DNA of 38,461 nucleotides, taken from Xanthobacteraceae bacterium (GTDB taxonomy: Bacteria; Pseudomonadota; Alphaproteobacteria; Rhizobiales; Xanthobacteraceae). Shown here one piece after another: positions 6,228 through 17,238 of this stretch; the first letter of the stretch is position 1; every line of letters begins with the position of its first letter. The position numbers were made by a program, and so were the translations under genes. The stretch lies in NCBI GenBank assembly GCA_030041005.1, contig JASHOR010000094.1:67064-105524 (forward strand). Direction: 5' to 3'. Under the pieces are notes generated by a model. The model was not told the origin of the DNA. It worked only from the letters and a program-made list of their open reading frames with translations, and did not search any database.

Positions 6228-6254
6228 CCAGTGTCCGGATTCCGAAGTTTGCAA
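6228..6254 (-). repeat. Half copy of the CTAG-family palindrome (C-type arm only)
   Basis: CCAGTGTCC followed by GATTCCGAAGTTTGCAA matches the left arm of the complete C elements at 11071 and 17164 with few differences. The complementary right arm is missing: the sequence runs straight into the kdsD start region. This looks like a decayed or truncated element, 8 bp after the stop of the preceding gene. Confidence 0.6.
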
Positions 6255-7354: not shown

Positions 7355-7485
7355 CGTCATTGCGAGGAAGCCGCAGCGGGGCGACGAAGCAATCCAAAAT
7401 TTCATTTTTTTCGGCGCTTAATTGCTTCGCGGAACCTGTCATCGGACCGCGCGACTGCGCGCGAGTCCGTTGGCTCGCAACGACG
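7355..7485. repeat. Long imperfect palindromic repeat between convergent genes
   Basis: The left end CGTCATTGCGAGGA and right end TCGCAACGACG are inverted copies. The arm continues with CGACGAAGCAATCC, and GCTTAATTGCTTCG follows inside. This wording (CGTCATTGCGAG... GAAGCAATCC) is a repeat I know from many Bradyrhizobium-like genomes. It fills the space between the converging kdsD and lipoprotein genes and could act as a bidirectional terminator. Confidence 0.7.
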
Positions 7486-7512
7486 ATTCAATCCGATCGG
7501 ACTCCGCTATAG

Positions 7513-8548: not shown

Positions 8549-8626
8549 CTAGTGGAGCGGATTTGACATTCGCTACCCGCGAGCCGCCAGCTCATGAAGC
8601 GAATGTCAAATCCAAAGCTCCACTAG
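8549..8626 (+). repeat. CTAG-family palindrome, class A (A1)
   Basis: 78 bp beginning and ending with CTAG. Outer arms CTAGTGGAGC / GCTCCACTAG; inner arms GGATTTGACATTCGCT (8559-8574) and its perfect complement (8598-8613). An unpaired AAA lies on the right side between inner and outer stems. The last four bases (CTAG, 8623-8626) are also the first four of the next element, B1. Confidence 0.85.
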
Positions 8627-8700
8627 TGTGGCGGTTCAGAAGTCCGCATCATTCCTGCCGCGACCTCGTCATGCGGACTTCTGAACCACAGCCACACTAG
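8623..8700 (+). repeat. CTAG-family palindrome, class B (B1)
   Basis: 78 bp, CTAG to CTAG. Outer arms CTAGTGTGGC / GCCACACTAG; inner arms GGTTCAGAAGTCCGCAT (8633-8649) and its exact complement (8671-8687), with ACA unpaired on the right arm. The 21-nt loop (8650-8670, containing CCTGCCGCGACC) is identical in all three class B copies in the window. It shares CTAG with A1 and is followed by a 12-bp linker and C1. Confidence 0.87.
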
Positions 8701-8712
8701 ATAAATAAGTTG

Positions 8713-8787
8713 CTAGTGTCCTTTGATTCCAACATTCGCACAAGGCCGTGCCGAAACGGGATGCGAATGTTCGAATCGGACCACTAG
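8713..8787 (-). repeat. CTAG-family palindrome, class C (C1, ACATT subtype)
   Basis: 75 bp, CTAGTG to CACTAG. Inner arms GATTCCAACATTCGCA / TGCGAATGTTCGAATC with one mismatch. Read on the minus strand it aligns with class A (ACATTCGC then CCCG in the loop, AAA bulge on the right arm), so it is marked reverse. The linker before it (8701-8712) is ATAAATAAGTTG. Its right CTAG contains the TAG stop codon (8784-8786, minus strand) of the GT9 gene. Confidence 0.85.
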
Positions 8788-9896
8788 CCCGGCAACGCGC
8801 GTGCCGTCGCCGCGGAGGCGCGCGGCACGGCATTTTCGCCGATCCGCAACGCTTGGTCGACCGCGCTGAGCACTTGCCGCGACGGCAATTCGTCAAGACA
8901 ACGGCTGTAGCTCCCGATATGGCGCTCGCAGCCCTCGAACGTGCACGGCAGGCAGGGCAACGGATTTTGCACCACCCAGACATTTCCCTGGTTCTGAATG
9001 CTTGCGCTTGGCAGCCATGGCCTCGTCAGGCCGCCGAGCGGCCACGGGCCCCACACTCGCGGGTCCATCGGACCGAACAGCGCAACAGTCGGGCAGCCCG
9101 TCGCGGCGGCCAGATGGCTCACCGCCGTATCGGGACCGATATAGACGCTTGCGGCGGACAACAGCGACACGGTCTGCGGCCAGGCCGCCGGATGCACAGC
9201 GACGACGCCCTGCCAGACATTTTCCAGATATCTGCGCTCGCTCTCGTCGGGACCGCCGATGGCAATGACCGCGAGACCCCGCTCGACAAGACCGGCGGCC
9301 AGCGCGCGCCATCCTTCGCGCGTCCACTGCTTATAGCGGAACATCGGCGCGGCGTGGATCACCGCATAGCGCCCGCTTGCGCCGACGCCGTGCGCCGGCG
9401 CAGCGGCCGGAGGAACGACCTCCGCGACGCGCGCAATGCCGAGCGCATCAGCGATCCGCAGCATCTGCTCGACGCGGTGGATGTCCGCCACCATCGACGT
9501 CGAACGGCGAAAGACCAGGCGCTTGAGCGCGCCGCCCACGCCCGATCCGCGCGGCGGTACAACGCCGGCATGCGCACGGCCAGCCAGCAGCGCGAAGATG
9601 CTTGGACGATCCCCGCTCTGCGTCGATATGGCGAGATCGTATCGCTTGCAAAGCCGCGCCATGAGGCCGACCGATTCAATGGCCGTCGGCCGCTCGGGCA
9701 TCGTGACGATGCGATCGATGTCCGGATTACCTTGGAGGATGCCGGCGGCGCTGGCAAAAACCAGCGTGTCGATCTTTGCCCCGGGCCAGGCGCGGCGCAG
9801 GCTGCGAATAAGCGGCGTTGTCAGCAGCACGTCGCCGAGCCGGCGCAGCACCACGACGAGCACGCGCGGCTCACGCGGCAGTTCGATCGGTTTCAT
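8784..9896 (-). CDS. GT9-family glycosyltransferase, probable LPS heptosyltransferase (370 aa)
   Basis: Transfers a heptose or similar sugar from a nucleotide donor to the LPS core at the cytoplasmic face of the inner membrane. The N-terminal Rossmann half starts VLVVVLRRLGDVLLTTPLI, the classic GT9 opening. The C-terminal half has YIGPDTAVSHLAAATGCPTV and ALFGPMDPRVWGPW, the nucleotide-sugar site of the ADP-heptose:LPS heptosyltransferases. I chose ATG at 9896; an upstream in-frame ATG (9971) adds 25 residues unlike the family. The stop codon TAG is the end of repeat C1. It lies between GT2 and DUF6165 genes in the heptose operon. Which heptose position it modifies cannot be told. Confidence 0.86.
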   Translation of the reverse strand: MKPIELPREPRVLVVVLRRLGDVLLTTPLIRSLRRAWPGAKIDTLVFASAAGILQGNPDIDRIVTMPERPTAIESVGLMARLCKRYDLAISTQSGDRPSIFALLAGRAHAGVVPPRGSGVGGALKRLVFRRSTSMVADIHRVEQMLRIADALGIARVAEVVPPAAAPAHGVGASGRYAVIHAAPMFRYKQWTREGWRALAAGLVERGLAVIAIGGPDESERRYLENVWQGVVAVHPAAWPQTVSLLSAASVYIGPDTAVSHLAAATGCPTVALFGPMDPRVWGPWPLGGLTRPWLPSASIQNQGNVWVVQNPLPCLPCTFEGCERHIGSYSRCLDELPSRQVLSAVDQALRIGENAVPRASAATARALPG

Positions 9897-10039
9897 GCCG
9901 CACCCGACTTCAGCCGATACCCCATCGAGTTTGCGCCCGGCGATGCCCTGCACAGAAAGCTCAGGCGGCATCCGTTCATGACCTACCGCAGCGCCGATCT
10001 GTCGCGCAAGACGTCATGCGCGCGGCGCGCTGTCGTCGG

Positions 10040-10112
10040 CCAGGGTCCGATTCCAACATTCGCTTCATGAGCTGGCGGCTTGGGCTAGCGAATGTCAAAT
10101 CCGCTCCACTAG
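10040..10112 (-). repeat. Chimeric CTAG-family palindrome (C-type left arm, A-type loop and right arm)
   Basis: The left part (10040-10063, CCAGGGTCC then GATTCCAACATTCGC) is class C. From 10064 on, the loop (TTCATGAGCTGGCGGCT) and right arm (GCGAATGTCAAATCC, GCTCCACTAG) are the reverse complement of class A. The arms pair only over ACATTCGC/GCGAATGT, so the inner stem is weakened. The right CTAG provides the TAG stop (10109-10111) of the GT2 gene. Confidence 0.75.
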
Positions 10113-10945
10113 ACGGCGTGGCCCAGCGTCGAAAGACCGCGTTCGGCCCGAATCCGAGAGCCGGCCAAGACTTCGTCGAGACAACGGCTGTTCTCCGCCA
10201 GACCCGATCGGTCGGCTTCGGGATGCCACAGATGCAGCACGCCCGTTGCGAAACGCCCGTCCTTGCGCCGCACGCCGGCATGAAACAGGCGCACGACGAG
10301 ATCGGAATCTTCGAGGCCCCAGCCGCTGTACCGTCCGTCAAATCCGTCGATAAGATCAAGGTCGCTGCGCGCCACCGCCAGATTGCAGGTCTTCGCGCCT
10401 TCCCAAGCGCGGGAGTGAAGTCGGCGCAGCGGTCCGAGCGGCAGACGGATCGCCGGCAGGCAACGATTGATGCCGCCGCGCAAGCGCTCGTGCGCAAGCC
10501 GGGCAAAATCCCAGGTTTCCGCCGGCAGCCCCCCGGCGAGAACCGTCTCAGTCAGTTTTTGCGACAGCAGGATGCGGTTGCCGGCCACCAGCCAGCCGGG
10601 CTCGGCCAGCCACCGGTGGACGGAGATGAAATCGGCGCGAGCCAGGCAATCGCCGTCGAGGAAGATGCAGTAGCGTCCGGCACTCTGCAGGATTCCGCGA
10701 TTGCGAATCTCGCCGCCGCGGAAATCGTCATGCTCGTGCCAGACATGCCTGATGGGCACCGGCAGCCGCGGCCGCCAGCTCTCGATCAGGCGCGCGGTCT
10801 GCGGGCCCGACCCATCGTCGGCGACGATGATTTCGAAGGTGTTGTCCGTTTGATGCGCGAGCGCGCGCAGCGATGCATCGAGCGCATCCGGACGATTGTA
10901 GGTCGTCACGATGACGGAAATCAGATCGTCGCCCACTGCCGTCAT
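10109..10945 (-). CDS. GT2-family glycosyltransferase (278 aa)
   Basis: A GT-A fold inverting transferase. The start ISVIVTTYNRPDALDASLRA, the VADDGSG nucleotide site and the metal-binding D-x-D (IFLDGDCLARADF, Asp97 and Asp99) are typical of GT2. The C-terminal GWGLEDSDLVVRLFHAG matches the galactosyltransferase-like acceptor domain found in LPS and capsule enzymes. It probably adds a hexose to the LPS core in the cytoplasm. ATG at 10945 is chosen; a GTG at 10978 lies 2 bp from repeat B2 and would add 11 residues. The TAG stop is the end of the chimeric palindrome. Same strand as hldE upstream and GT9 downstream. Confidence 0.85.
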   Translation of the reverse strand: MTAVGDDLISVIVTTYNRPDALDASLRALAHQTDNTFEIIVADDGSGPQTARLIESWRPRLPVPIRHVWHEHDDFRGGEIRNRGILQSAGRYCIFLDGDCLARADFISVHRWLAEPGWLVAGNRILLSQKLTETVLAGGLPAETWDFARLAHERLRGGINRCLPAIRLPLGPLRRLHSRAWEGAKTCNLAVARSDLDLIDGFDGRYSGWGLEDSDLVVRLFHAGVRRKDGRFATGVLHLWHPEADRSGLAENSRCLDEVLAGSRIRAERGLSTLGHAV

Positions 10946-10980
10946 CCGTAAGGCAAAACCGTCCGCATCGGCCGTCACTC

Positions 10981-11058
10981 CTAGTGTGGCGGTTCAGAAA
11001 TCCGCATCATTCCTGCCGCGACCTCGTCATGCGGAGTTCTGAACCAAAGCCACACTAG
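10981..11058 (+). repeat. CTAG-family palindrome, class B (B2)
   Basis: 78 bp, CTAG to CTAG, same arms and same 21-nt loop as B1, with two substitutions in the inner arms (AAATCCGCAT against ATGCGGAGTT) that reduce pairing. It is followed by the 12-bp linker AGCAATAAGTTG (11059-11070) and element C2. Together they fill the space between hldE and the GT2 gene. Confidence 0.87.
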
Positions 11059-11070
11059 AGCAATAAGTTG

Positions 11071-11145
11071 CCAGTGTCCTTCGATTCCGAAGTTCGCAAA
11101 CGAGGGTGCCGCATAATGATGCGAACTTCGGAATCGGGACACTAG
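11071..11145 (-). repeat. CTAG-family palindrome, class C (C2, AAGTT subtype)
   Basis: 75 bp, CCAGTG to CACTAG. Inner arms CGATTCCGAAGTTCGCA / TGCGAACTTCGGAATCG pair perfectly over 17 bp. Its reverse complement aligns with class B through GCATCATT and CCTCGT in the loop. The terminal CTAG (11142-11145) holds the TAG stop codon of hldE. Confidence 0.87.
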
Positions 11146-12623
11146 GTCGCCGCCTTGGCAGGTTGCGCGCGATTGACGATAGCCGTCGTACTGTGGCCCG
11201 GCACCAGTTCGACGAGAATGACCTGGCCGCCGGCAGCCTCGACAAGTGTGCGACCGACGACCTCCTCGCGCTTGTAGTCGGCGCCTTTGACCAGCACATT
11301 GGGACGCACCAGTTCGATCAGTTCAAGCGGGGTGTCCTGATCAAAGACCACGACCAGGTCCACGGCCTCCAGCGCGGCAAGCACCTCGGCGCGGCTCTCC
11401 GCCGGATTGATCGGCCTGCCGTCGCCCTTCAGGCGGCGCGTCGAGGCATCGCTGTTGAGGCCCACGACCAGCACATCGCAGGCGGCGCGGGCCTGGACGA
11501 GCAATCGAATGTGGCCGCGATGAAGAAGGTCAAAGCAGCCGTTGGTGAAGCCGATGCGCCGGCCCTGTCGCCGCCATTGCGCAAGGCGCTCGTGGAGCAC
11601 CGACCAGTCGAATACGATCTTGTCCTCGGGCGCGAGCGATGCTGCCGGCAGGATGCGATGGCGCAATTCGGTAAGCGAGACGGTTGCGGTGCCGCGCTTG
11701 CCGACCACCACGGCGGCGGCGGCGTTGGCGGCGCGCATGGCCGGCTCGAACGGCGTTTTCGTTGCCAGCAGCACCGCCATGACCGCAGCGACCGTGTCGC
11801 CGGCGCCGGAGACATCGCGGATCTTCACCGGGTAGGCGGGGATGTGGACCGGCTCCCGACCTTGGACGTGCAACGTCATCCCCTGCTCGCTGCGGGTGAC
11901 CAGCACGGCGTCGCAGTCGATGGCGCCGGCAAGCTCCGCCGCGGCGGCCGCGATTTCCTGTTCGCTTGCGATCGGCCGATGCACCGCAGCGGTCAGCTCG
12001 CGGAGGTTGGGCGTGATCAGCGTCGCGCCGCGATAGACGCGATAATCGTGGTTCTTCGGGTCGACCACGACGGGTTTGCCCAGCCGACGCGCCTCGTCGA
12101 TCACGGCGCGGATGACGCGAGGCGTCAGCACACCCTTGGCGTAGTCCGACAGCACGACCGCGCCGACCTGCGGCAGCGCCGCCGCCGCGAAAGCGATCAA
12201 CGCGGTTTCACTTTGCGCGCTGACCGGCTCCGCCGCCTCCCAGTCGGCCCGCATGAGGTGCGTCGAGTGGTGCTCCGAAACGAAGCGCACTTTGCGCGTG
12301 GTCTGTCGGGCCCGATCGACCACGAGATCGGGAACGATGCCGCCGTTAAGCCTGCCAAACGCGTCGCTGAGCACGCGGCCTGCGTCATCATTGCCGATGA
12401 GCGCGACGAAGACGCAGCGGGCGCCGAGCGCGGCGATGTTGCGCGCGACGTTGCCGGCGCCGCCGATTCCGATTTCGCTGCGGCTCACCGCCAGAACGGG
12501 CGTCGGCGCTTCGGGCGAGATGCGCGTGACCTCGCCATAGACGAAATCGTCGAGCATGAGATCGCCGACGCAGAGGATGGTCTGCTGGGCGATGCGCTTG
12601 AGGGCATTCTCCAGGTCAAACAT
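11142..12623 (-). CDS. hldE: Bifunctional heptose-7-phosphate kinase / heptose-1-phosphate adenylyltransferase (493 aa)
   Basis: Makes ADP-D-glycero-beta-D-manno-heptose for the LPS core. The N-terminal PfkB/ribokinase domain (~1-325) has [35 protein letters not shown] and the [12 protein letters not shown] anion hole with the catalytic Asp. The C-terminal nucleotidyltransferase (~345-490) has [14 protein letters not shown] with the H-x-G-H motif and ends near the usual length. I chose ATG at 12623 ([14 protein letters not shown]); extending to 12674 would translate into repeat A2. The stop TAG is the end of C2. It follows hldD on the same strand; the pair forms the ADP-heptose pathway, but gmhA and gmhB are not in the window. 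Confidence 0.94.
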
Positions 12624-12653
12624 CGGTGTTGGCCGCCGGCCCCGATCCTGCGA

Positions 12654-12732
12654 GTAGTTGAGCGGATTTGACATTCGCTACCCCCAAGCCACTCGCTCGT
12701 GAAGCGAATGTCAAATCCAAAAGCTCCACGAG
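12654..12732 (+). repeat. CTAG-family palindrome, class A (A2)
   Basis: 79 bp. Left end GTAGTTGAGC is a degraded CTAGTGGAGC; right end is GCTCCACGAG. Inner arms GGATTTGACATTCGCT / AGCGAATGTCAAATCC are unchanged from A1, while the loop differs (ACCCCCAAGCCACTCGCTCG). It lies 30 bp upstream of the hldE start, so it would be in the transcript before hldE. A 12-bp linker (12733-12744, CACTTATAGTTG) leads to C3. Confidence 0.82.
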
Positions 12733-12744
12733 CACTTATAGTTG

Positions 12745-12821
12745 CCAGTGGTCCTTTGATTCCAGCATTCGCATGAGGGCGTGCCGAAAATGGGGTGCGA
12801 ATGTTGGAATCGGGACACTGG
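12745..12821 (-). repeat. CTAG-family palindrome, class C (C3, ACATT subtype)
   Basis: 77 bp, CCAGTG to CACTGG. Inner arms GATTCCAGCATTCGCA / TGCGAATGTTGGAATC pair with one G-T. Both ends have CCAG/CTGG in place of CTAG. It ends one base from the TGA stop of hldD (12823-12825), so here the element abuts but does not supply the stop codon. Confidence 0.84.
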
Positions 12822-12822
12822 C

Positions 12823-13803
12823 TCATCGATAGCGATCGCTGCCGTTGAGATGGCAGCTTACGTAACGCCCAACCGCTTCTTCGAGCGACATGAAATCGGC
12901 ATTATAGCCGGCCCGACGGAGATTTTCGGTCTCCGCGCGGGTGAAATACTGGTAGCTGCCGCGAATCGATTCCGGCATGTCGATGTATTCGATCGCGGGC
13001 TCGCGGCCGAGCGCGGCGAACATCGCGGCGATCAGATCGCGAAAGGCGCGCGCCGTCCCGGTGCCGACATTGAAAATGCCGGAAACCGACGGCGTGTCGA
13101 GGCACCAGTTCACGATGGCGACCGCGTCATCGACATAGATGAAATCGCGCTTCTGCTCGCCGTCGGCGACGCCTGCACGGTACGATTTGAACAGCCGGAT
13201 CGGGCGGCCGACCTTCGCTTCGTCGAAGCGCTTGGCGACCAGGCTCATCATCTCGCCCTTGTGATATTCGTTGGGGCCGAAGACGTTGAAGAACTTCAAC
13301 CCGACCCATTGCGGCGGCAATTGCTCCTTGCGCGCGGCGCGCGCGACGACCGCAAGATCGAACAGATGCTTGCTCCACCCATAGAGGTTCAGCGGCTTGA
13401 GGCGCTTGAGCGCAGCGAGCGAGACCTCGTCGGAAAAGCCCGCGCTGCCGTCGCCATAGGTCGCCGCGGACGAGGCATAGATGAAGGGCGTGCGCGTTAA
13501 CGCGCACCAGTCGAGCAGACGGAGCGGGAGCCGGAAGTTGGTTTCAATCAGAGCATCGCCATCGGTCGCCGTCGTTGACGAAATGGCGCCGAGATGCACC
13601 ACGGCATCGAGCTTGCGGCCGTCGAGCCATCGCTGCAGGTCGGCGGGCGGGACGAAATCGGCCAATTGCCGGCTGCCGAGGTTACGCCATTTTCCATCGT
13701 TGCCGAGGCAGTCGCTGACGACAATATCGCAGCGTCCTGCTTCATTGAGACTGGCAACGACATTCGAGCCGATAAAGCCGGCTCCGCCGGTGATCATTAA
13801 CAT
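12823..13803 (-). CDS. hldD: ADP-L-glycero-D-manno-heptose 6-epimerase (326 aa)
   Basis: Epimerises ADP-D-glycero-D-manno-heptose at C6, the last step before transfer to the LPS core. A short-chain dehydrogenase fold: NADP-binding TGGAGFIGSNVVASLN at the N-terminus, HLGAISSTTATDG near residue 70, SSAATYG near 111 and the catalytic Tyr141/Lys145 in NLYGWSKHLFDL. The motifs KFFNVFGPNEYHKG and RDFIYVDDAV are typical of HldD. It is the first gene of the minus-strand LPS run and divergent from the WaaE-like gene. ATG at 13803 or 13797 could serve as start; neither has a strong ribosome binding site. Confidence 0.95.
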   Translation of the reverse strand: MLMITGGAGFIGSNVVASLNEAGRCDIVVSDCLGNDGKWRNLGSRQLADFVPPADLQRWLDGRKLDAVVHLGAISSTTATDGDALIETNFRLPLRLLDWCALTRTPFIYASSAATYGDGSAGFSDEVSLAALKRLKPLNLYGWSKHLFDLAVVARAARKEQLPPQWVGLKFFNVFGPNEYHKGEMMSLVAKRFDEAKVGRPIRLFKSYRAGVADGEQKRDFIYVDDAVAIVNWCLDTPSVSGIFNVGTGTARAFRDLIAAMFAALGREPAIEYIDMPESIRGSYQYFTRAETENLRRAGYNADFMSLEEAVGRYVSCHLNGSDRYR

Positions 13804-14106
13804 CGACAGCCGTAGGACCGCTGGTTTTGGGATCGTGCTGTTGCCGACCGCCCCGCTCCTTTGCCTTAGACTGCGGCAGCGGGCAACATTTTCGTCCTCT
13901 GTGAGCCACTCGGCCGTGCGGAGCCACGATGCATTGAAATGAACATAGATTCATAAAATTGACGAGCTTTGATTATTCGAGCCGGCCACAATCCGCCGCC
14001 AATGTGTTACAGGATATCCGAGAGGCTAATAATGCCGCCCTTGCCGAACGAGGTCGTCGCCCGTCTCGGTCGCAAGCCCTAATCGCGCGCCTTCGAGTCC
14101 GCATCC
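13804..14106. other. Divergent intergenic region between hldD and the WaaE-like gene
   Basis: 303 bp without a credible gene. A clearly AT-rich patch (about 13930-13980) stands out from the GC-rich surroundings and probably holds promoter elements for one or both LPS operons. I could not fix a -35/-10 pair. None of the CTAG-family palindromes occurs here, in contrast to the spaces inside the operons. Confidence 0.5.
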
Positions 14107-14898
14107 ATGGACAAGCTTTCAGCCTACATCATCGCTTTCAACCAGGCCGAGAAGATTCAGGCGGCGATTGAGAGCGTGCTATGGGCCGACGAGGTGGTGG
14201 TCGTCGACTCCCACAGCACCGACGGAACCGCCGAGATCGCGACGGGTCTCGGCGCGCGGGTCGTGCAGGTTCCCTTCAACGGCTTCGGCGAACTGCGCAA
14301 TCGCGCCATCGCGGCCTGTCAATACGGCTGGATTTTCAGCCTGGACTCCGACGAGCGTTGCACCGCGGCCGTGCGCGACGAGATTCTCGGCATCCTCGCC
14401 GGCGAGCCGGCGCACGAGGTCTACCGCGTTCCCCGCCGCAACTACATGATGGGGCGCTGGATTCGCGGTTCCGGCTGGCACCCGAATTTCCGCCAGCCGC
14501 AGTTGTTCCGCAAAGGCGCGATGCGTTACACGCTCGAGCCGGTCCACGAGGGCTACGAGGTTCTGAGCGACAAACCCGTCGGCACGCTGCGGAACGCGAT
14601 CTGGCAGATTCCCTTCCGCAACCTCGAAGAACTCATTGTTAAAATGAACCGATATTCATCTCTCGGCACCAAGAGGCTGGCGCATCGGCGGACATCGATG
14701 GCGGCAGCGCTTGGGCACGGCGTCTGGTCCTTCGTCAAACACTACGTGTTCAAGCTCGGATTCATCGATGGCTGGGCTGGATTCGTCATTGCCTTTGGCA
14801 ATTTTGAAGGCACTTTTTACCGGTACGCAAAACACTTTGAACAGGAGCAGAACTGGCGCCCGCCCACCGCCGAGCCACTGCGCCGCGAACGAGCCTGA
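14107..14898 (+). CDS. GT2-family LPS core glycosyltransferase, WaaE/KdtX-like (263 aa)
   Basis: A cytoplasmic sugar transferase acting on the LPS core. KLSAYIIAFNQAEKIQAAIE, VVDSHSTDGTAEIA and SLDSDERC (D-x-D, Asp80 and Asp82) form the GT2 nucleotide-sugar site. The following RNYMMGRWIRGSGWHPNFR and LEPVHEGYEV are the pattern of the WaaE/KdtX group, which attach glucose to the inner core heptose in enterobacteria. The C-terminal hydrophobic stretch around YVFKLGFIDGWAGFVIAFGN suggests membrane association. It leads the plus-strand LPS block; waaF-like starts 7 bp after its stop, so the two are very likely co-translated. Confidence 0.86.
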   Translation: MDKLSAYIIAFNQAEKIQAAIESVLWADEVVVVDSHSTDGTAEIATGLGARVVQVPFNGFGELRNRAIAACQYGWIFSLDSDERCTAAVRDEILGILAGEPAHEVYRVPRRNYMMGRWIRGSGWHPNFRQPQLFRKGAMRYTLEPVHEGYEVLSDKPVGTLRNAIWQIPFRNLEELIVKMNRYSSLGTKRLAHRRTSMAAALGHGVWSFVKHYVFKLGFIDGWAGFVIAFGNFEGTFYRYAKHFEQEQNWRPPTAEPLRRERA

Positions 14899-14905
14899 CT
14901 ATAAA

Positions 14906-15997
14906 ATGAATAATAATTCACTCCAATACGCTGCGGACGCGACCCAGAGGGCGGGAGGGTCCCCGATCCTGATCGTACCCTACATGTGGATCGGCGATTT
15001 CGTCCGCGGGCATTCGGTCGTGAAGCTTTTGCGCAGGCGTTTTCCCGACCGGCCGATCGATCTGCTTGCCACGGCGCTCTGTGCCCCGCTTGTCGATTAC
15101 ATGCCCGGCGTGCGCCGGGCCGTTGTCGCCGAGCTTCCGCGCCGGCGACTTGCCTTGGGGGCACATCGGATGCTCGCCCAGCGGCTCAAGCGGGAGAGAT
15201 ACGGAACCGCGCTCGTCTTTCCGAAAAAGTGGAAAGCGGCCCTCGCGCCGTTCCTGGCCGGCATCCCGGAGCGAACCGGATTGCTCGGAGAAGCGCGATT
15301 TATCGTTCTCAACGATGTGCGTTCCGGCGCCGGAAAATTGCCGCGGATGATCGACGAATGCGCCGCTTTGGCGCTTCCGCGCGGCGCCCCGCTCCCGCCG
15401 GAGTGGCCCGCTCCCGAACTGCGGGTCCCGACGCCGGAAGCCGCGGACTGGCGGAACAGGCGCGGGTTGACCAGGCAGGACCGCCCGATCGTCGCCCTCG
15501 CCCCCGGCGCCGTCGGGCCAGCCAAGCGTTGGCCGGCCGCAGCCTATGCCGCGCTCGTCGGCCGGCTTCTTGCCGAAGGGTTCGCGGTCTGGGTCCTCGG
15601 CGGGCCTGACGAAAAATCCCTGGCGCAGCAAATCGTCGGTCATACCGAAGCGCGCGATCTGACCTCTACGGACCTGCGCGAGGCCATCCTGGCATTGGCG
15701 TGCGCCTCGGTCGCGGTTTCCAACGATTCCGGTCTTCTGCACGTCGCCGCCGCACTGGGCACCCCGACGATCGGAATCTTCGGCCCCACCAGCCCGTGGC
15801 ACTGGGCGCCGCTCAATCCGCTGGTTGCGGCGATCCAGGCGAAGATCGACCTGCCCTGCCGGCCCTGCCATAAGCCGGTCTGCCGTCTCGGCCACCATCG
15901 ATGCATGGGCGAAATCGGTCCGGACGAGGTGTTTTCGAGGATCCCCCATGCGATCCCGCCGGCCGCAGCGCCCGCCTCAACTGCGCAAGCCGGATAA
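14906..15997 (+). CDS. waaF: GT9-family heptosyltransferase, WaaF-like (363 aa)
   Basis: Adds a heptose from ADP-heptose to the LPS inner core. The start ILIVPYMWIGDFVRGHSVVK is the WaaF variant of the GT9 opening. VALAPGAVGPAKRWPAAAYA and SNDSGLLHVAAALGTPTIGIFGP (written here in family order around residue 270) form the nucleotide-sugar site; GPTSPWHWAPLNP is characteristic of heptosyltransferase II. Four Cys in a short stretch (LPCRPCHKPVCRLGHHRCMG) near the C-terminus also fit this family. ATG at 14906 gives the normal N-terminus. Together with the GT9 gene at 8784 the region holds two heptosyltransferases. Confidence 0.88.
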   Translation: MNNNSLQYAADATQRAGGSPILIVPYMWIGDFVRGHSVVKLLRRRFPDRPIDLLATALCAPLVDYMPGVRRAVVAELPRRRLALGAHRMLAQRLKRERYGTALVFPKKWKAALAPFLAGIPERTGLLGEARFIVLNDVRSGAGKLPRMIDECAALALPRGAPLPPEWPAPELRVPTPEAADWRNRRGLTRQDRPIVALAPGAVGPAKRWPAAAYAALVGRLLAEGFAVWVLGGPDEKSLAQQIVGHTEARDLTSTDLREAILALACASVAVSNDSGLLHVAAALGTPTIGIFGPTSPWHWAPLNPLVAAIQAKIDLPCRPCHKPVCRLGHHRCMGEIGPDEVFSRIPHAIPPAAAPASTAQAG

Positions 15998-16054
15998 CGC
16001 GGTATTCATGGAATCGGTGTAGGGCCGACAGGGCAGCAAGGCAGGTTCGCCGAC

Positions 16055-17077
16055 ATGACGACTCTGGTCACCGGAGGCGCCGGTTACATCGGCAGTCACA
16101 TGGTGTACGCGCTGCACGACCGCGGCGAAGGCGTCGTCGTGCTCGACGATCTCTCCACCGGTTTCGATTGGGCGGTCGCCCCCGGCGTGCCGCTTGTCGT
16201 CGGCGACAGCGGCGACCAGGACCTGGTGGCGAAGATCATTCGCGACCATCGGATCGAGGCCGTCATCCATTTCGCCGCCTCCGTGGTCGTGCCCGATTCC
16301 GTGCGTGAGCCGCTCGCCTATTACCGCAACAATACCGTCAACTCGCGCGCGCTGATCGAGTGCGCCGTAAAGGGCGGCGTGCGTCATGTCATTTTTTCCT
16401 CCACCGCCGCCATCTACGGCAACCCGCATGAAATCCCGGTGCGGGAGGACGCGCCGGCGCAACCGATCTCCCCCTACGGCTGGTCGAAATTCATGACCGA
16501 GACCATGCTGCGCGACGCGAGTTCCGCGCACGGGCTCAAACACATCATTCTGCGCTATTTCAATGTCGCCGGCGCCGACCCGCAATGCCGCACCGGGCAA
16601 TCGACAAATGGCGCCACGCATCTGATCAAGGTCGCGGTTGAGGCGGCGCTGGGGCTGCGTCACAGGCTCGACATTTTCGGCGACGATTATCCCACCGCCG
16701 ACGGCACCTGCATCCGCGATTATATTCACGTCAGCGATCTCGTGCTCGCGCATTGCGAAGCGCTGCGTCAGCTTCGCGCCGGAGGCCCGTCAACGACGCT
16801 CAATTGCGGCTACGGTCACGGTTTTTCAGTTCGCGACGTGATCGAAGTGGTCAAGCGGGCATCGGGCGTGGACTTCAAGGTTGAACATGCGCCGCGACGC
16901 GCGGGCGACGCCGCGCAAATCGTGGCGGACACCGCCCGGATCCGCAGGACATTGCAATGGCGGCCGCAATTTGACGACCTTGCAATCATCGTCAGGCACG
17001 CGCTCGCCTGGGAACGCGAACTCCTCAAGCGGCGCGGCGCACGCGGCGACGCTCGCGCTCACCTGGAACCGGCCTAG
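16055..17077 (+). CDS. galE: UDP-glucose 4-epimerase (340 aa)
   Basis: Interconverts UDP-glucose and UDP-galactose, supplying galactose donors for LPS or exopolysaccharide. NAD-binding VTGGAGYIGSHMVYAL, HFAASVVVPDSV, FSSTAAIYGNP and the catalytic Tyr141/Lys145 in SPYGWSKFMTE are all present. The NVAGADP and DGTCIRDYIHVSDL motifs are diagnostic of GalE rather than other epimerases. AAGGCAGG lies upstream of the ATG. The stop TAG (17075-17077) is the left end of repeat B3. A related UDP-sugar specificity such as GlcNAc cannot be excluded. Confidence 0.93.
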   Translation: MTTLVTGGAGYIGSHMVYALHDRGEGVVVLDDLSTGFDWAVAPGVPLVVGDSGDQDLVAKIIRDHRIEAVIHFAASVVVPDSVREPLAYYRNNTVNSRALIECAVKGGVRHVIFSSTAAIYGNPHEIPVREDAPAQPISPYGWSKFMTETMLRDASSAHGLKHIILRYFNVAGADPQCRTGQSTNGATHLIKVAVEAALGLRHRLDIFGDDYPTADGTCIRDYIHVSDLVLAHCEALRQLRAGGPSTTLNCGYGHGFSVRDVIEVVKRASGVDFKVEHAPRRAGDAAQIVADTARIRRTLQWRPQFDDLAIIVRHALAWERELLKRRGARGDARAHLEPA

Positions 17078-17151
17078 TGTGGCGGTTCAGAAGTCCGCAT
17101 CATTCCTGCCGCGACCTCGTCATGCGGAGTTCTGAACCAAAGCCACACGAG
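17074..17151 (+). repeat. CTAG-family palindrome, class B (B3)
   Basis: 78 bp, CTAG to CGAG. It differs from B1 and B2 at few positions, and its 21-nt loop is identical to theirs. The first bases CTAG contain the galE stop codon. It is followed by the linker ATCAATAAGTTG (17152-17163) and C4. In this case the element pair sits downstream of a plus-strand gene, whereas the other pairs follow minus-strand genes. Confidence 0.87.
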
Positions 17152-17163
17152 ATCAATAAGTTG

Positions 17164-17238
17164 CCAGTGTCCTTCGATTCCGAAGTTCGCAAACGAAGGT
17201 GCCGCATAATGATGCGAACTTCGGAATTGGGACACTGG
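17164..17238 (-). repeat. CTAG-family palindrome, class C (C4, AAGTT subtype)
   Basis: 75 bp, CCAGTG to CACTGG. Inner arms CGATTCCGAAGTTCGCA / TGCGAACTTCGGAATTG, nearly identical to C2 including the loop (GGTGCCGCATAATGA). B3-linker-C4 is almost a copy of B2-linker-C2, which argues for movement or copying as one unit. Confidence 0.86.

Follow-up and report, generated by a model that had tools for sequence, protein, structure and literature searches.

Hairpins and genes in the window

The window (the whole stretch of DNA that was analysed, 38,461 nucleotides from a Xanthobacteraceae bacterium, hereafter the host) carries palindromic elements at the ends of genes that include a glycosyltransferase-9 gene, an hldE-like gene with PfkB and cytidylyltransferase domains, and a galE-like epimerase gene. 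An earlier note on this DNA had described nine hairpins together with a chimera and a half copy, and direct reading confirmed all of them at their claimed sites:

6228-6252, plus strand: half copy, one outer-type end, C'-like at 22 of 25 bases
8549-8626, plus strand: hairpin A1, bounded by CTAG at both ends and forming the left half of a unit of A-C type
8623-8700, plus strand: hairpin B1, with CTAG 8623-8626 common to A1 and B1
8713-8787, plus strand: hairpin C1 (class C), with the stop codon of the glycosyltransferase-9 gene (8784-9953, minus strand) within its outer CTAG
10043-10112, minus strand: chimera of C left arm, A loop and A right arm; its CTAG includes the stop codon of the gene at 10109-10978 (minus strand)
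10981-11058, plus strand: hairpin B2, left half of composite B2-C2
11059-11070, plus strand: linker sequence of B2-C2, with similar linkers in other units
11071-11145, plus strand: hairpin C2 (class C'), its outer CTAG including the stop codon of the hldE-like gene (11142-12623, minus strand)
12654-12732, plus strand: hairpin A2, left half of composite A2-C3
12745-12821, plus strand: hairpin C3 (class C), right half of composite A2-C3
17074-17151, plus strand: hairpin B3, its outer CTAG (17074-17077) including the stop codon of the epimerase gene (16055-17077)
17152-17163, plus strand: linker of B3-C4, with similar linkers in other units
17164-17238, plus strand: hairpin C4 (class C'), right half of composite B3-C4

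The half copy is known from reading of the sequence; a profile census, which registered five clusters in the window, did not report it. Members of the C class are present where the earlier note had put them, but they really form two classes, C (C1 and C3), which accompanies A, and C' (C2 and C4), which accompanies B. Composites thus occupy 10981-11145, 12654-12821 and 17074-17238, and 8549-8787 is an A-B-C hybrid. The chimera presumably arose when an A-C unit lost internal sequence at the common ACATTCGC.

The paired unit and its fold

Further copies lie beyond the window, as host searches with A1, B1 and C1 each led to about 40 distinct places (40 candidates were scored per search), a dispersal far beyond chance. 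The profile census of 1.59 Mb of host DNA, about a third of the genome, counted 236 hairpins in 116 clusters, two of which lie within a predicted gene. The real unit is a pair of about 165-170 bp, either B-linker-C' or A-linker-C, and 160 of these hairpins belong to such pairs. Among adjacent hairpins of the same orientation, B+ is followed by C'+ 53 times (with a gap of 13-16 in all except two) and A+ by C+ 27 times. Solo clusters comprise 14 B, 12 C', three A and two C. Such solo copies, together with a nested solo C' that has two outer-type ends, would suit a mobile unit made of a single hairpin, with pairs resulting from repeated adjacent insertion. We disfavour this explanation as highly improbable, since the linker is alike across genera, the pairs hold one order and orientation, and the bulged inner end is retained in 12 of the 16 full-length solo copies.

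The stem, bulge and loop had been described correctly in the earlier note. The single-stranded DNA of B3-C4 folds at -51.1 kcal/mol, with shuffled sequences averaging -21.7 (z -9.5), and a two-hairpin fold is found in 46 of the 47 units examined. Two-hairpin units are mostly 163-176 bp long, with related hairpins head to head around a linker of about 12-14 bp, and the bulge sits on the arm toward the partner hairpin. The inner end is the outer-end motif with 2-5 bases added between tip and box. Counted over the first 20 base pairs only, these added bases lie on the inner arm in 44/46 left hairpins and 46/46 right hairpins, a count that replaces an earlier fold-based one (inner in 33/46 and 37/46) which was confounded by weak loop helices. 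Both loops carry GCNGC, each in 34 of the 47 units (shuffle mean 5-6). GANTC is present in 42 of the 47, with 102 sites against 31 in shuffles, although the sequences are related; most sites are located about 10 nt from the tip, within the stem and not the loop.

Insertion at CTAG and the match to IS630 ends

Whole units have inserted at CTAG in both orientations. Units of 165 bp and B-C' type are nested at CTAGs within A-C units, forward at L147 and L163 and in reverse at L158, and the nested solo C' with the outer type at both ends, at L166, is 73 bp long. Removal of the nest leaves one CTAG and an emptied site that aligns to intact A-C units, cleanly in four of the five nests tested, the emptied sites being paralogous and not orthologous; in the fifth (L187) 5 nt are left over. 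Relatives within the genus are distant, with 66-81% identity over this region. Tandem units have one CTAG in common. Cluster ends read CTAG in 96 cases and GTAG in four, with 47 unresolved, in a reading that sought CTAG-like words first, and most units listed across genomes have CTAG at both feet. CTAG is rare in the host, where it forms the stop-codon context of some genes and is also carried within the elements; at 26 of the 91 gene 3' ends that face a cluster, the stop codon overlaps the element's CTAG.

A tetranucleotide foot, a bulge in the stem, conservation of the loop, linked pairs of inverted hairpins and tandem copies also make up the layout of REP sequences in the cited excerpts (PMC8266576, PMC3116915), and the elements might accordingly be of REP/BIME/REPIN type, their folded single-strand hairpins being recognised by a RAYT-type Y1 tyrosine transposase. 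CTAG at both junctions would fit this single-strand mechanism too, with CTAG as its cleavage site. However, the RAYT driver that the earlier note had raised was not borne out, as the host (in an assembly 95% complete) has no Y1_Tnp match over the cut-off, its one fragment scoring 21.6 bits (cut-off 23) and containing an internal stop. Moreover, the elements most often have CTAG at both feet rather than GTAG (or CGTC) at one, the hairpins are about 75-79 nt long, and their outer ends match those of IS630, all of which makes the REP/RAYT explanation unlikely. From the same excerpts, the likeness to REPINs and BIMEs extends to an inverted pair that replicates as a unit, to the bulge, loop and tandem arrays, and to singlets as decayed pairs, whereas those served by RAYT have a GTAG tag, palindromes of 20-50 nt and a Y1 transposase (PMC3116915, PMC8266576).

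The outer ends (n=96) match the best CTAG-TG IS630 end at a mean of 14.1/19 bases, against 8.0 when shuffled, where the IS630 ends compared (n=26) were a selection having CTAG-TG or close variants and many other IS630 loci gave no end pair or another end type. As a control, the match to CTAG-AG IS630 ends was 6.7/19 (shuffled 7.3). IS ends were computed for 40 of the 80 loci from named genomes, and in some the best pair is plainly no TIR. The host itself carries an IS630 element (L062:1369-2532; NF033545, E about 1e-80) with ends CTAG-TGTTCCG...CGGAACA-CTAG, which adjoins a B element via one common CTAG and whose transposase has as its stop codon the TAG of the terminal CTAG. One or both ends are of type CTAGTGTCC(C/T)GA in 16 of the 17 IS630 loci L213-L229, some with single-base variants, and L225 has no proper end pair. 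Locus L230 combines a C'-like end with a B-like one, and the tip variant CTAGTCA is mirrored between IS L293 and units of genomes G204, G433 and G313. CTAG is reportedly the target of IS630 and IS870, in work attributed to Tenzen and Ohtsubo in 1991 and to Fournier et al. in 1993, the latter being said to have found that the stop codon of IS870 is made by the target. The elements share the CTAG target with these and, with IS870, a stop codon made by the target, but unlike them are not autonomous. For ISY100, a bacterial IS630 element, in vitro insertion into TA with duplication of the TA is described in the excerpt cited (PMC2170065).

A mobile non-autonomous family was one of two explanations given in the earlier note, and it is upheld by the dispersed copies, their mutual insertion at CTAG and the IS-like ends. 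We consider it likely that the elements are IS630-type MITEs with a two-hairpin build, moved in trans by CTAG-specific IS630 transposases. A transposase of this kind (Tc1/mariner-type) would bind both outer ends, each recognised over the 25 nt from CTAG through the end of the TTCGC box, and would excise the unit and reinsert it at another CTAG, leaving one CTAG on each side, in what we infer to be cut-and-paste movement. The mis-spaced inner ends would be disabled by their 2-5 added bases, and the pair would therefore move as one. Insertion at a stop codon would restore the stop, and insertion into other copies would give rise to nests and tandems.

Several findings stand against the IS630 reading. 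The host has one intact CTAG-type IS630, with ends just moderately like those of the elements, and A and C reach only 13/19 and 12/19 with the best IS end. Among 35 element-bearing genomes, an IS630 transposase exceeds the cut-off in 12 and is absent at that cut-off in 23 (the element-rich G204, G148 and G314 among them), with some IS630 match at E <= 0.001 in 27; G204 (99% complete, one contig, 14 near-full units) has a single IS630 match, which is below the cut-off. The autonomous IS ends inspected have TIRs and no evident hairpin, and conservation of the loops in both halves is unneeded by a plain MITE.

Spread over the order and related repeats

Of 397 genomes of the order searched with a structure model, 71 contain the unit, and these represent many families. 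Copy number ranges from the 236 hairpins counted over a third of the host's DNA down to, for instance, two full-length copies in G371. On plasmids, a PLSDB search in 'distant' mode with four units gave no match. Model R1, run over 37 of the 80 loci from named genomes (623 kb), found no units near the IS630 copies there. Ten sites shared between species were compared: in five the unit is better conserved than the flanks, and in the other five it drifts as they do; at one conserved site it is identical (166/166) in three species with flanks at 92-95%. Two further shared sites (L406/L408 and L409/L411), where one copy is just a fragment, were excluded from the ten. The conserved sites hint at co-option, and some copies may have a function.

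Functional RNA hairpins, the earlier note's second explanation, gained no support in general: the window has no Rfam match at gathering score, the elements are not over-represented between convergent genes (13 of the 101 sites whose two neighbours are known, compared with 228 of 1,124 intergenic gaps), and stem changes are both-sided more often than one-sided (59 versus 20 cells). A terminator role was rejected on the lack of enrichment in gaps of convergent genes. More broadly, the elements could serve the host as DNA or RNA (terminators, attenuators, protein or CcrM methylation sites), with the transposition that spread them lying far in the past, as an architecture fixed across many families, the conserved loops, the frequency of GANTC and the five shared sites where units are better conserved than flanks would suggest. 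This is quite unlikely given the wide range of copy number, the nests and decayed copies, the five sites that drift, the fragments at two more and the lack of a convergent-gene excess; GAGTC is also found in a Streptomyces IS end (L243), so GANTC may just belong to the terminal repeat.

Among known repeats, RUP and Correia/NEMIS are MITEs which the cited excerpts tie to IS630 and which likewise have TA at the termini, target duplication, terminal inverted repeats and a mostly intergenic location (PMC2229807, PMC2817692); the present elements are set apart by a build of two hairpins with a linker, by mis-spaced inner ends and by a target that is the full CTAG. Closest in description are the Caulobacter CcrM-associated intergenic repeats (CIR; Chen and Shapiro 2003), which, in the excerpt of a 2007 review that called their mobility mechanism open, are also alphaproteobacterial and intergenic, with two stem-loop arms and a linker, TA termini and GANTC (PMC2229807). 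CIR are shorter, at about 110 bp against 165-170 bp, and have GANTC at a terminal loop, not in the stem. Other repeats in that excerpt have no arms or linker, and form one stem-loop by pairing of both ends (PMC2229807). The literature searched yielded no account of a two-hairpin CTAG family of 165 bp, most subscription papers being outside the search.

That a two-hairpin architecture stays constant across many families, and that both halves keep their loops, would not be expected of a MITE and raises the question of what maintains it. Tentatively, the elements may be a DDE counterpart of REPINs, that is, a long-lived population of paired hairpins in at least 18 families of one order, which keeps its architecture and loops through compensatory stem drift, persists in genomes where no resident IS630 is detected, includes single copies that selection has fixed, and is a larger sister of CIR or the same family. 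The IS630 ends, CTAG target and mis-spaced inner ends would offer a concrete mechanism for a class of intergenic repeats, and with stop-codon CTAGs as landing sites a mobile element could fill intergenic space at low cost.

Paired hairpins in the host genome

The hairpins that the earlier note had recorded in the window, nine complete, one chimeric and one half copy, were all confirmed when the sequence was read directly. The further copies to be expected of a mobile family were found outside the window: in the 4.9-Mb host genome (188 contigs; the window is C139:67064-105524), the class A, B and C queries each hit about 40 distinct places, with the best 40 of 86 (A), 165 (B) and 79 (C) candidates scored. 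Fixed hairpin pairs were evident from 60 copies printed with their flanks. A census with four profiles covered 1.59 Mb of the host, namely the window and 80 stretches, mostly from large contigs and partly picked for having matches, which may bias density upward; it counted 236 hairpins in 116 clusters (B 77, C' 75, A 45, C 39). Among adjacent pairs, 53 have B followed by C' and 27 have A followed by C; 160 of the 236 hairpins belong to such pairs, and 35 clusters are exactly B-C' and 21 exactly A-C. Where both outer ends (the CTAG ends of a unit) could be placed, the B-C' unit measured 163–167 bp in 22 of 25 cases (165 bp in 15) and the A-C unit 166–176 bp in 12 of 12. A single ancestral hairpin, duplicated in inverted orientation, seems to underlie each pair, since the reverse complement of B aligns with C' at 56 of 80 columns, and that of A with C at 58 of 85, both far above shuffles.

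The hairpin ends are polarised. Among full-length host copies, the spacer between tip and TTCGC box is 1 at the outer and 4 at the inner end of B (58/66), 3 at the inner and 1 at the outer end of C' (49/55), 1 and 4–5 in A (28/36), and 3 and 0 in C (29/33). The two-hairpin fold was found in 46 of 47 units sampled across the order, and the inner arm carries 2–5 extra bases, mostly after 8–10 bp, in 44/46 left and 46/46 right hairpins. The IS630 ends quoted below have the outer spacing; mis-spacing would disable the inner ends.

With 492 occurrences against 1,209 expected, CTAG is rare in the 1.59 Mb, and 172 of the occurrences fall within element clusters. Only two of the 116 clusters lie inside a predicted gene (1,377 genes, predicted for this analysis). 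At 26 of 91 gene 3' ends facing clusters, the stop codon is the TAG of the outer CTAG, while any other distance from 3' end to cluster is represented by at most three genes. In the window, the genes ending at 8784, 10109, 11142 and 17077 are terminated in this way. For the last three, alignable proteins of relatives stop no more than about 20 residues from the corresponding position; those related to the first are distant and say little about its end. Elements do occupy the gaps between the LPS genes, as first described, but these gaps are not special, because clusters occur throughout the stretches read.

Insertion at CTAG and IS630-type ends

In four of five nests tested, where one element is inserted inside another (L147, L158, L163 and L166), taking out the insert yields an A-C unit with one CTAG, or its decayed form, at the junction. 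In three of them the insert is a complete 165-bp B-C' unit, reversed in one case, and in the fourth it is a 73-bp C' with outer-type ends on both sides; the fifth nest, L187, has 5 extra nucleotides. Neighbouring tandem units have one CTAG in common. The outer tetranucleotides of clusters, sought with CTAG-like words first, were CTAG (96), CTCG (34), CCAG (24) and others in fewer cases, with 47 not resolved.

The host's single intact IS630 transposase lies within a 1,164-bp IS (L062:1369-2532, contig C183) with CTAG-TG type ends, whose target CTAG supplies the transposase stop codon. The CTAG at its right end is common to an adjoining B element. Among relatives from named genomes (Bradyrhizobium and others), ends such as CTAGTGTCCCGAGTCACAAGTTCGC occur; the C' outer end, by comparison, reads CTAGTGTCCCGATTCCGAAGTTCGC. 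For 96 outer ends (94 from 47 units of the order, plus host A and C), which come from mutually related units and are not independent, the mean best match to 26 CTAG-TG IS630 ends was 14.1/19 (shuffles 8.0), and to 11 CTAG-AG ends 6.7 (shuffles 7.3). Host A and C reached only 13/19 and 12/19. Two IS elements, L296 and L297, each have one TGACATT-type and one TAACACT-type end, an arrangement recalling A and C.

In its mode of action the element resembles an IS630-type MITE, and in its layout a REPIN. An IS630 transposase exceeded the cut-off in only 12 of 35 element-bearing genomes, which counts against IS630 as the driver. An IS630 element on a Bradyrhizobium barranii plasmid (L230:9906-11119) combines a C'-like with a B-like end, as do the outer ends of the B-C' unit, and is a candidate for the parent type. 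At L061:1501-1608 (host contig C30) there is a short remnant of Y1_Tnp, which scores below cut-off and contains a stop codon.

Distribution, structure and conservation of the units

With strict filters and at most the best 7 candidates per genome, so that all counts are lower bounds, DNA searches found the B-C' unit in at least 32 of 101 genomes, host included, and its covariance model (R1) in at least 71 of 397 genomes of the order, spanning at least 33 of 142 genera and at least 18 families (counted from the table). In a phylum sample, R1 matched at least 14 of 398 genomes, all of the host's class and one outside the order. Four query units gave no match in PLSDB plasmids.

Among 19 units from different genomes, pairing is seen in 96.1% of cells (89.7% in shuffles), and both sides have changed in 22 of 53 pairs (shuffled 8.8, slid 2–6). 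Stem changes affect both sides of a pair more often (59 cells) than one side (20), a modest indication that symmetry is kept at the DNA level. GCNGC is present in each loop in 34 of 47 units, mostly at nt 34–35 read from outside inwards (shuffle means 6.4 and 5.3, maximum 12; the 47 sequences are related and not independent). It lies at loop nt 34–36 from each outer tip, in the same outside-to-inside orientation in both loops. GANTC, the CcrM site, is present in 42 of 47 units, often paired, once in each arm of one hairpin, with compensatory changes at its N (columns 110/158 of A3); methylation at GANTC could time transposition.

Ten sites were compared at which at least two species of genera g130, g106 and g82 have the full insertion in common; two more were left out, as one copy was a fragment. 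Five show a unit better conserved than its surroundings: 166/166 at L377/L383/L392 (three species) and 166/166 at L386/L393, both with flanks at 92–95%; 165/166 at L378/L384; 161/163 plus one gap at L390/L401; and three differences, by our own count, at L430/L432, where conservation extends equally to nearby non-coding DNA. Flanks at the first two sites differ by some 5–8% between species. At the other five, units diverge as much as the flanks or more. All of these insertions predate the species split, so the two groups do not result from differences in age. In genome G371 just two copies remain at full length, and both belong to the identical ones. At L377 an adjacent gene has its reading frame extending into the unit, and this could account for constraint on no more than some 18 of the 166 bases. 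Judged by these alignments, purifying selection on single copies is possible at L377/L383/L392 and L386/L393, and the five conserved sites show signs that may reflect co-option.

Relation to described repeats

A different repeat cluster at window 7364-7490 (TCGTCATTGCGAGG...GAAGCAATCC...) looks like CGTC-tagged REPs, and there is a similar stretch after the tandem units at locus L019. For the present units, the best published match is the CIR, which has two arms, a linker, GANTC and TA termini in alphaproteobacteria (PMC2229807). CIRs, possible homologues, are shorter than these units (PMC2229807). Some IS ends have GAGTC, GATTC or GAATC at the GANTC position; if CIRs are relatives, their GANTC may therefore belong to an IS630-type terminal repeat.
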